DNA from: Bacteroidia bacterium
GTDB lineage: Bacteria > Bacteroidota > Bacteroidia > Flavobacteriales_D > Sanyastnellaceae
Direction: 5' to 3'
NCBI GenBank assembly: GCA_030427925.1
Contig: JAUICJ010000001.1
Span: 62,001-126,000, forward strand
DNA: 64,000 bases
The translations under genes and the position numbers were made by a program. Below the pieces are notes generated by a model. The model had not been told where the DNA came from and did not search any database. It saw nothing but the letters and a program-made list of their open reading frames with translations. Positions 8,082 through 53,212 of the stretch are shown here, piece by piece. Numbering within the stretch: the stretch's first letter is position 1; every line of letters starts with the position of its first letter.

Positions 8082-8102
8082 AACATGTGAAAAACATGTG
8101 AA
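8082..8102. repeat. Direct repeat AACATGTGAA x2, operator candidate
   Basis: AACATGTGAA occurs at 8082-8091 and again at 8093-8102, a spacing of 11 bases (one helical turn). Each copy contains the palindrome ACATGT. It lies 46-66 bases upstream of the fibre-like protein start, a suitable place for a regulator binding in tandem on one face of the helix. Confidence 0.55.
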
Positions 8103-8264
8103 CAAGCCGGGATGGGCGCATTTCATGAAACCATTGCACCCCATTCTAGACATATCATCAAGGAATGCTTCAGCTCCAAATGGGCGCGATCACGGGGTCA
8201 ACTCATCTGAACCAAAGGATTTCCACCCGAAGCGCACGCATCAACAGTGACCGCACAGCATTCT

Positions 8265-50347: not shown

Positions 50348-52195
50348 ATGTGTGGAATCGTCGCTTACATCGGAAGCCAACAGGCGTTGCCGATTTTGAT
50401 CAATGGATTGCAACGCTTGGAATACCGGGGGTATGACAGTGCGGGGGTGGCCGTTTTGGAAGAGGGACCCCGGTTGCGCGTGGCCAAACGCAAAGGCCGC
50501 GTAGCCGACCTGCTCGAAGCCATCGGGGAGGACGTGATTGCCGGGACCATCGGCATCGGGCACACCCGGTGGGCGACGCACGGGCCGCCGAATGACGTGA
50601 ATGCGCATCCGCATGTGAGCGGGGTTCGGGATTTGGCCTTGATCCACAACGGTATCATCGAGAACTACCATGCCTTGAAGCAGAGCCTGCTGCAACGCGG
50701 GCACCAATTCGAAAGCGACACCGACACGGAAGTCCTCGCCCACCTCATCGAGGAAGTGCGGAAAACAACGGGCAAGCCCCTCTTCGACGCGGTGCGCATC
50801 GCGCTCAACGAAGTCCAAGGCGCCTATGCCATTGTGGTCCTCGATGAATCGAACCCCAATCAGCTCATTGCCGCACGCAAATCCAGCCCGCTGGTCATCG
50901 GCGTAGGCAGCGAAGGCGACTACTACGTAGCGTCCGATGCCACCCCCATCATCGAGTACACCGCCAACGTGGTGTACCTCGAAGACGAGGAAATCGCCCT
51001 CATTGAGCGGGATAACGGCTTGCACATCCGGACCATCCACAACAACGAAGTGACGCCTGAAATCATCGAGTTGGAAATGCAGCTCGAAGCCATTGAAAAA
51101 GGCGGGTATGAGCACTTCATGCTAAAGGAAATCTTCGAACAGCCGCGCTCCATTGCCGACTCGATTCGGGGGCGACTGAATGTGAAGCAAGGGACCATCC
51201 ACATGGCCGGCATCGACGACCACTGGGACCAGTGGCAACAAGCCGGGCGGTTGGTCATTGTGGCGTGCGGAACCAGTTGGCACGCGGGATTGGTGGCGGA
51301 ATACCTGTTCGAGGAGTTCGCGCGCATCCCCGTAGAGGTGGAGTACGCGTCGGAATTCCGTTACCGGAATCCCATCATCCGTCCCGACGACGTGGTCATT
51401 GCCATCAGCCAAAGTGGCGAAACGGCCGACACGTTGGCGGCCATCCAGCTGGCCAAGCAACAAGGGGCGCACGTCTTCGGCGTTTGCAACGTCGTGGGGT
51501 CGAGCATTTCCCGGGAGACCCATGCGGGCGCGTACACCCACGCCGGACCGGAAATCGGCGTGGCGTCGACGAAAGCGTTCACTGCGCAAGTGGCGGTGCT
51601 GACGTTGATGGCGCTGCACATTGGGCAGAAGAAGGGCACGGTGCCGCCGAAGCGGTATTACCGGTTGGTCAATGAGCTGGCGACGATTCCGAAGAAGGTG
51701 GAATCGGTGTTGGAACAGGAGCCGTTGCTGCGCCAAATCGCGGAGGACTTCCACGAATCCACGAACGCATTGTACCTCGGGCGCGGCGTCAACTTCCCCG
51801 TCGCGTTGGAGGGTGCCTTGAAGTTGAAGGAAATCAGCTACATCCACGCGGAGGGCTACCCGGCGGCCGAAATGAAGCACGGTCCCATCGCGTTGATCGA
51901 CGCGGAAATGCCCGTGGTCTTCCTCGCTACAACGGATGAAATCTATGAGAAGGCCGTTTCGAACGTTCAGGAGGTGAAGGCGCGCGGAGGGCGGTTGATC
52001 GCCGTGGTGACGGAGGGCAACCGGGATTTGGCCCAACTGGCAGAATACGTCATCTCCGTGCCTCCTTGCGACGAGGCGCTGGCCCCGCTGCTGTCTACCA
52101 TTCCCCTGCAGCTGCTCAGCTACCACATCGCGGTGCTCCGCGGATGCAACGTGGACCAGCCGCGGAATCTCGCAAAGAGCGTGACCGTCGAATGA
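50348..52195 (+). CDS. glmS: Glutamine-fructose-6-phosphate aminotransferase (isomerising)
   Basis: A 615-residue enzyme making glucosamine-6-phosphate for peptidoglycan and LPS. The N-terminal glutaminase has Cys2 (MCGIVAYIGS), GYDSAGVAV, HTRWATHG and HNGIIENY. Two SIS isomerase domains follow: ACGTSWHAGLVAEY and AISQSGETADTLAAI, then YLGRGVNFPVALEGALKLKE. The C-terminal NLAKSVTVE is the conserved end. No glmS ribozyme is recognisable in the 27-base upstream gap, which has a TAACTTAT box four bases before ATG. The gene probably belongs to the same transcript as the DUF4270 gene. Confidence 0.97.
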   Translation: MCGIVAYIGSQQALPILINGLQRLEYRGYDSAGVAVLEEGPRLRVAKRKGRVADLLEAIGEDVIAGTIGIGHTRWATHGPPNDVNAHPHVSGVRDLALIHNGIIENYHALKQSLLQRGHQFESDTDTEVLAHLIEEVRKTTGKPLFDAVRIALNEVQGAYAIVVLDESNPNQLIAARKSSPLVIGVGSEGDYYVASDATPIIEYTANVVYLEDEEIALIERDNGLHIRTIHNNEVTPEIIELEMQLEAIEKGGYEHFMLKEIFEQPRSIADSIRGRLNVKQGTIHMAGIDDHWDQWQQAGRLVIVACGTSWHAGLVAEYLFEEFARIPVEVEYASEFRYRNPIIRPDDVVIAISQSGETADTLAAIQLAKQQGAHVFGVCNVVGSSISRETHAGAYTHAGPEIGVASTKAFTAQVAVLTLMALHIGQKKGTVPPKRYYRLVNELATIPKKVESVLEQEPLLRQIAEDFHESTNALYLGRGVNFPVALEGALKLKEISYIHAEGYPAAEMKHGPIALIDAEMPVVFLATTDEIYEKAVSNVQEVKARGGRLIAVVTEGNRDLAQLAEYVISVPPCDEALAPLLSTIPLQLLSYHIAVLRGCNVDQPRNLAKSVTVE

Positions 52196-52204
52196 CCCGG
52201 TGGG

Positions 52205-52224
52205 TTATTCACAACTTATTCACA
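52205..52224 (+). promoter_or_regulatory. Two consensus DnaA boxes, 11-base spacing
   Basis: TTATTCACA occurs at 52205-52213 and 52216-52224. Both match the DnaA-box consensus TTATnCACA exactly, have the same orientation and are spaced one helical turn apart. They lie 10-30 bases after glmS and about 110 bases before the outer-membrane protein gene. They may be a DnaA-controlled promoter element or part of an initiation-related site; no larger box cluster or AT-rich unwinding element was seen in the gap. Confidence 0.6.
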
Positions 52225-52332
52225 ATGAACGCTTTGCTTGTGAGTATCAACCAAATGTGACGTCGCAGGGAACAAATTGTACGATTTTTCCGTTTCTTGC
52301 GGGCGGAATTCTAGAAACCACAATACACAGTC

Positions 52333-53112
52333 ATGAAGAAACTCATGTTCGCATTGGCGCTTACAGCGCTTGTTACTGCAGGCGCGACCGCGCAAAAGCA
52401 AATGGGTGATGAGCACAACATCGAGGTGAGCTTTTCGCCGCTTGGAAGCAGCCCGATCGACGGGACCGTCATCAAATACCGGAACTTCCTTGACGACAAC
52501 CGGGCGTTCCGTTTGAGCTTCATGTTGAACACGACGACCGACACGTACGTGACCGCGCAGGAAGGTGATTTCTCTGCTGAGGACCCGGTGAGCCCGCAAT
52601 TGCACGACATCTACGGCAGCACGTCGTTCGGCATCGCTCCGGGTTACGAAATTCACTTCGACGGCACGGATAACTTGTCTCCGTACTTCGCCATCGAAGG
52701 CTACTTCATGACCGGAAAGGACAGCTACGAGCAAGAGTTCTGGGGCCCCAACGACATCGATAACATCGGCCAGTTGGAGAAGAACGTCACGTGGTCTTAC
52801 ACGACTTCGCAGGGCTTCAACGCCATCGGCTTGAACTTGCTGTTCGGTGCGGACTACTACTTCACCGACATGATGTACGTCGGTTTCGAGGCCGGCCTCG
52901 GCTTCGGTTCCACGAACGTCACGAACTTCGAGTACGAAATCAGCGACTTGGTGGCTTACAACTTGAGCAACGGCCTCGCTCCGGACGACGACGCGCCGGT
53001 TTCAGTCGCAGGTGACTTCGACGAATTCGATTTGTACGACGGCTACCTCTCCACTTCGGAGTTGGGCAACGTCTTCCAGGGATCGCTCCGTTTGGGCTTC
53101 CTCTTCCAATAA
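52333..53112 (+). CDS. Predicted outer-membrane beta-barrel protein
   Basis: A 259-residue protein. The signal peptide (MKKLMFALALTALVTAGATA) is followed by strands of an outer-membrane barrel (RAFRLSFMLNTTTDTYV, SPYFAIEGYFMTG, MMYVGFEAGLGFGS) and a C-terminal LRLGFLFQ with aromatic residues in the last strand. It has no close family that I recognise. It has the features of a strongly expressed gene: a separate 137-base upstream region with two DnaA boxes and a stable UUCG-loop terminator directly after. Codon choice is more uniform than in its neighbours (mostly AAC, GGC, ACG, TTC), which also suggests high expression. Confidence 0.82.
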   Translation: MKKLMFALALTALVTAGATAQKQMGDEHNIEVSFSPLGSSPIDGTVIKYRNFLDDNRAFRLSFMLNTTTDTYVTAQEGDFSAEDPVSPQLHDIYGSTSFGIAPGYEIHFDGTDNLSPYFAIEGYFMTGKDSYEQEFWGPNDIDNIGQLEKNVTWSYTTSQGFNAIGLNLLFGADYYFTDMMYVGFEAGLGFGSTNVTNFEYEISDLVAYNLSNGLAPDDDAPVSVAGDFDEFDLYDGYLSTSELGNVFQGSLRLGFLFQ

Positions 53113-53133
53113 GCTTTCCGCACTTTGCGGTGA

Positions 53134-53161
53134 AAGGCGGTCCTTCGGGGCCGCCTTTTTT
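53134..53161 (+). terminator. Intrinsic terminator with UUCG tetraloop
   Basis: AAGGCGGTCC (53134-53143) pairs with GGGCCGCCTT (53148-53157) through one G-T wobble around a TTCG loop, and the 3' arm merges into TTTTTT (53156-53161). It lies 21 bases after the outer-membrane protein stop and isolates that gene from the cyclase. Confidence 0.95.
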
Positions 53162-53212
53162 GTGTCCTGCTGTGGCGGCCGCTTGCAGGCCAAATCCCTA
53201 TCTTCCCGCACC

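Follow-up and report, generated by a model that had tools for sequence, protein, structure and literature searches.

A tandem pair of perfect DnaA boxes was identified between glmS and an outer-membrane protein gene in the window, a 64-kb stretch of a Bacteroidia genome (hereafter the source genome). The pair is probably a double DnaA box through which the promoter of the downstream gene is controlled; this gene encodes a predicted eight-stranded outer-membrane beta-barrel protein. We infer DnaA as the binder and the barrel gene as the target from sequence comparison among relatives.

Results

A tandem pair of perfect DnaA boxes follows glmS

The upstream gene, glmS, is an ORF at 50348-52195 on the plus strand (stop codon 52193-52195) encoding glutamine-fructose-6-phosphate transaminase with SIS and GATase domains, and most relatives carry one strong orthologue of it. 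The tandem TTATTCACA-AC-TTATTCACA occupies 52205-52224, 9 bp 3' of the glmS stop codon. Box 1 (52205-52213) and box 2 (52216-52224) are both perfect, lie on the plus strand in equal orientation with starts 11 bp apart and a 2-bp gap, and are identical in the same-genus relative G001. The arrangement that the initial annotation had described, two perfect direct boxes at 11-bp spacing between glmS and an outer-membrane gene, was thereby confirmed. The glmS/barrel gap is 137 bp long, the local GC content is 44% vs 60% for the window, the barrel gene starts at 52333, and the two boxes in the gap are the only perfect TTATNCACA matches in the 64 kb. The annotation had also reported no further boxes in the gap, which holds for perfect boxes but not for an imperfect inverted third one, TGTGAGTAT, on the minus strand at 52239-52247. 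Box 3 stands 14 bp past box 2, a gap matching the spacing of the relatives' inverted pair TTATCAACA-N14-TGTTGATAA, and is weaker in G001 (GGTGAGAAT).

The tandem pair is present in one copy in the 2.95-Mb source genome, with 0 copies for the reversed-pattern control, and such an arrangement is expected ~2 × 10−6 times per window and ~1 × 10−4 times per genome. The box count alone is weak evidence, since at least two boxes anywhere in 64 kb were reached by 9 of 100 shuffles, and no genome-wide enrichment was found for single perfect boxes (25 vs 39 for the reversed pattern) or for the relaxed form TTATNMACA (47 vs 48). Two boxes per 64 kb are not rare; the tandem form is. A chance origin of the pair was rejected because the tandem is unique in the genome and is kept in relatives.

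The boxes are conserved where glmS adjoins the barrel gene

A search for the exact pair in 60 genomes, including the source genome, detected it just 3' of glmS in the source genome and in G001, and also in G024. The G024 pair was first taken as the same element and was then rejected, as it sits upstream of mraZ. Between the source genome and G001, a 24-bp block comprising the pair and the following ATGA is letter-identical, a second block, ATCAACCAAATGTGAC (52246-52261), flanked in the alignment of the two by the boxes on one side and the putative core promoter on the other, is also unchanged together with most of that promoter, and the intervening gap bases vary. The next relative, G013, has CTATTAACA-GG-TTATCAACA at the equivalent site, and most relatives have A instead of C at box position 6, unlike the classical TTATNCACA.

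Relatives of the barrel protein were collected as 80 named loci, in which glmS is directly upstream in 43, separated by other DNA in 31, and not found on the piece in 6. TTATNMACA was present no more than 180 bp from the ATG of the barrel gene at 35 of the 43 glmS-adjacent loci, a count that is partly circular because the motif was defined after inspecting the glmS gaps (the mraZ and rpiB sets described below played no part in the choice). The other 8 of the 43 adjacent gaps lack a TTATNMACA box, and within the same 180 bp none was found at the 37 loci with glmS separated or not found. No box stands beside either gene at any of the 31 loci where the two are separated (31/31), indicating that the barrel gene does not need the box. 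At 25 of the 35 box-bearing named loci, the start of a plus-strand box is located 104-106 bp upstream of the ATG.

Shuffling was carried out on the adjacent gaps of the source genome and 42 named loci, with L141, a near-duplicate of the source locus, omitted. Boxes were observed in 35 of these 43 gaps vs a mean of 1.3 and a maximum of 6 over 300 shuffles, with the locus counts not being independent because the loci are related; among non-redundant gaps, 14 of 19 carried TTATNMACA vs a mean of 0.58. Control patterns of equal make-up occurred in the gaps at near chance frequency. The intergenic background of TTATNMACA is 0.19 per kb as sampled in G012 and G038; in the source contig, spurious long ORFs mask most gaps. 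Conservation between glmS and this gene in relatives, which the initial annotation had proposed as a check, thus takes the form of an exact copy in G001 and of box variants in most adjacent gaps.

With one mismatch or fewer allowed, direct pairs with a 2-3-bp gap were found in 2 of the 19 representatives (shuffles, 0.00) and inverted pairs with a 13-15-bp gap in 8 of them (shuffles, 0.01). The source gap has the direct geometry exactly and the inverted geometry imperfectly, through box 3. Box 2 can pair with box 3, and some relatives have perfect inverted repeats, as would be expected if the gap encoded an RNA element, for instance a hairpin at the glmS 3' end or a terminator. However, the gap folds no better than its shuffles (z −1.0), has no T-run, and gave no match in an Rfam search, and direct repeats are what the source genome, G001 and G013 carry; an RNA element is therefore very improbable.

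The barrel gene and its putative promoter

The putative target gene (52333-53112, plus strand) encodes an exported protein of 259 residues with a signal peptide, predicted to be an outer-membrane beta-barrel. The structure model has eight strands (pLDDT 77, pTM 0.65), and Foldseek revealed weak likeness to CarO, OmpW, and OmpA, with no match below E 0.001. Thirteen of 24 aligned proteins match the Pfam family OMP_b-brl, but the window protein itself does not. A GC-rich hairpin followed by a T-run was read by eye from the sequence 3' of the gene (53133-53162, plus strand), and is not among the calls of the terminator scan.

A block of the form TTG ... TTTCTTGC at 52275-52300 on the plus strand is conserved between the source genome and G001, with a similar TTGCAC-type block in relatives. 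It is the putative core promoter, which we take to be of the Bacteroidota type, and the predicted transcription start lies ~30 bp before the barrel ATG. A sigma-70 promoter scan gave no match here.

The order of boxes, core promoter, and gene argues for transcriptional control by the boxes. DnaA would occupy both boxes, and perhaps also the imperfect box 3, probably in the form of a cooperative dimer or a short oligomer. The putative contact would be located ~80-100 bp upstream of the predicted start site and upstream of the −33 region, a position that slightly favours activation over repression. DnaA bound at the pair would alter transcription of the barrel gene with the cell cycle.

The predicted origin of replication lies upstream of rpiB

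The presence of DnaA boxes, the low local GC content, and a change of skew nearby could suggest that the pair is part of the replication origin. With coarse sampling the skew had put glmS near the flip, and oriC at glmS was a serious candidate until a finer sampling shifted the minimum and shared gene order pointed to the rpiB upstream gap. In the closed genome G012, the cumulative GC-skew minimum is at ~3.645 Mb, 45 kb from the glmS end at 3.600 Mb. On the source contig C36, it is at ~140 kb, ~25 kb beyond glmS (112-114 kb). The two skew-minimum regions have gene order in common, and both minima are close to the rpiB upstream gap, with the identity of rpiB confirmed for G012.

This gap is AT-rich and contains a stretch rich in T and A, trios resembling TAGTAGT, a short GC-rich linker, and a DnaA box. 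The predicted oriC spans C36:141,568-142,025 in the source genome (~79,600 in window coordinates, outside the window; loci L063 and L221-L250), with the start of the origin block at C36:141,619, at a distance of 27.4 kb from the box pair. Matches to rpiB were obtained in 41 of 45 genomes, and 30 of these loci were analysed. Scored with an origin-block matrix, 26 of the 30 relatives lay above every control (best control, 17.7), scores that lean upward because 7 of the 30 regions served as the seed of the matrix and all 30 were used to refine it. In the 26 relatives above control, the box next to the DnaA trios ends in AACA (19), CACA (5), or GACA (2), a count that omits the four lowest matrix rows (G003, G008, G015, and G009), and in 21, 7, and 2, respectively, of all 30 regions. 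The numbering of the closed genome G038 starts about at the predicted origin (rpiB at 880-1302), and dnaA is distant from it, 1.98 Mb away in G012 and on a separate contig in the source genome.

The oriC of this order thus most likely lies upstream of rpiB, away from both the glmS pair and dnaA, as predicted from skew, synteny, and block conservation. The glmS gap has neither the skew minimum nor, by eye, an AT-rich/DnaA-trio unwinding element beside its boxes, and a role of the pair as part of the origin, one option of the initial annotation, was rejected as extremely unlikely. The doubt that the annotation itself had voiced about a full oriC in the gap was right: the predicted origin is elsewhere yet close, invisible from the window, and was located by the GC skew that had been suggested for this purpose together with synteny. 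Among the three options initially offered, namely DnaA control of the outer-membrane gene, a titration site, or part of oriC, the first is the best supported, since the boxes stand at a fixed distance from the gene start and occur far above chance.

The proximity to oriC bears on the remaining option, an origin-proximal site for DnaA titration or for control of DnaA-ATP/ADP, like datA or DARS, whose effect would be on initiation and would not involve the neighbouring gene. The pair is 27 kb from the predicted oriC, and DnaA boxes of E. coli are concentrated near oriC, as stated in a section of PMC12371093. On the other hand, the pair offers just two perfect boxes at a fixed distance from the start of one gene, which is unexpected for titration alone, and boxes are absent from relatives without glmS-barrel adjacency; we consider titration as the sole role improbable. 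One site may serve both titration and gene control. Under control of the barrel gene by DnaA, the distance of 27 kb means that the locus would be copied soon after initiation, when DnaA availability would also shift.

Is DnaA the binder?

The boxes of the source genome and G001 are classical in sequence and have the tandem form with a 2-bp gap. Sections of PMC11317965 state for E. coli that the preferred target of DnaA is a pair of boxes separated by 2 or 3 bp, that a tandem pair with a 2-3-bp gap is the best predictor of DnaA binding, and that binding is lost when either box or the spacing is altered. TTATNMACA was enriched at two further places. Upstream of rpiB, 18 of 30 regions hold 30 sites in total (shuffle mean, 3.9 sites). 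Upstream of mraZ, 16 of 30 regions hold 19 sites (shuffle mean, 1.3 sites; 30 loci out of 33 genomes with a match). An AACA or CACA box also adjoins the DnaA-trios at the predicted origin, which supports TTATNMACA as the putative DnaA box form of this order.

The source DnaA (L002) keeps the equivalents of R399, D433, H434, and H439 and has Ala at the positions of P423 and T435; the same Ala pair was seen by eye in the DnaA of G012 (L106). The roles of the DnaA recognition residues, including the base-contacting P423 and T435 of E. coli, are described in part of PMC7561715, and Ala at these two positions could fit the relaxed box position 6. No TTATNNACA was found in 17.9 kb around the source dnaA, and hence no sign of classical dnaA autoregulation. 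A second, weak DnaA-domain match just above the family cut-off is present at C21:323-556 (L003) and is perhaps an Hda-like protein.

A different transcription factor could regulate the barrel gene through a site that resembles a DnaA box. The tightly fixed distance to the ATG is typical of an ordinary activator or repressor, and TTATYAACA, with the non-classical A at position 6, is the form present in most relatives, where it is often arranged as an inverted pair. This reading is nevertheless unlikely given the perfect classical boxes in 2-bp tandem in the source genome and G001, the mixture of direct, inverted, and single arrangements among relatives, and the enrichment of the same motif at the predicted oriC and beside DnaA-trios.

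Paired boxes at other promoters in Flavobacteriales

The inverted pair was found in 15 of 60 genomes vs 3 of 60 for the reversed control. Its contexts, with gene families checked on examples, are gyrA/Clp ATPase in 5, gyrA alone in 1, the barrel gene in 3, a cell-wall hydrolase in 2, and no common gene in 4. At the divergent gyrA/Clp ATPase promoter, the inverted pair has a 13-15-bp gap (at ~689 in L255 and at ~1501 in each of L256, L257, L260, and L261); the one beside gyrA is at L258. Nine of the 60 genomes carry direct pairs with either box form, against none for the control; besides those of the source genome and G001, the pairs are located before mraZ in 3, beside a hydrolase in 1, and elsewhere for the remainder. 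Tandem pairs upstream of mraZ in several genera adjoin GGGAGAAAGTG repeats (L005, L307, and L308), and at the source mraZ, on contig C23 near 36,932 (L289 and L331), TTATCAACA is accompanied by a second, imperfect box in tandem. Box pairs also stand beside a glucosaminidase-like cell-wall hydrolase gene in three relatives, two of them checked (L252, L254, and L304).

Two further sites were observed in the source genome. The gyrB gene has TTATCCACA ~85 bp upstream (C31:55,697; L282). Within the window, a second tandem pair, imperfect with one mismatch in each box, TGTGAAAAA-CA-TGTGAACAA with a 2-bp gap, is present at 8086-8105, ~50-70 bp upstream of the point where a large exported protein, encoded on the minus strand, probably starts.

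Discussion

Double DnaA boxes of E. coli occur at the purH, polA, mutH/DARS2, nrdA, and mioC promoters, as listed in a section of PMC11317965. The glmS-gap pair resembles them in being tandem, in its 2-3-bp gap class, and in its location in an intergenic control region, and it is conserved with the gene that follows (35 of 43 adjacent loci; 0 of 37 otherwise). It differs in that its putative target is an outer-membrane barrel, whereas the E. coli targets are nucleotide and replication genes, and in that the form in relatives is relaxed to TTATNMACA; it is a predicted site. As in datA and DARS of E. coli, some of which are near oriC, the DnaA boxes lie outside oriC, but the glmS gap has no multi-box cluster and is tied to the promoter of one gene. 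Part of PMC7561715 describes an oriC basal unwinding system with DnaA-trios in B. subtilis and C. difficile. The glmS gap shares the box type with such origins and lacks the AT-rich/trio block, which is located 27 kb away at rpiB.

The paired boxes at the gyrA/Clp, mraZ, hydrolase, and barrel promoters, together with the boxes at the source mraZ and gyrB, suggest a tentative wider reading, on balance doubtful, in which a Flavobacteriales DnaA regulon with paired TTATNMACA boxes would tie initiation to envelope building and DNA topology through the glmS-linked barrel, the mraZ division and cell-wall cluster, a peptidoglycan hydrolase, and gyrA/Clp. If such a regulon is true, the relaxed box would have its counterpart in the Ala residues of DnaA at the positions of P423 and T435.

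Literature searches among openly licensed papers on DnaA boxes in Bacteroidetes, Flavobacterium, or Flavobacteriia, mraZ, and DnaA-trios listed none that addressed replication-envelope coupling as judged by title and start of abstract. The coupling of replication to envelope growth is little described in Bacteroidota. The conserved putative DnaA site before an envelope gene is a directly testable link between the two, and the predicted oriC at rpiB is a site at which initiation could be tested.
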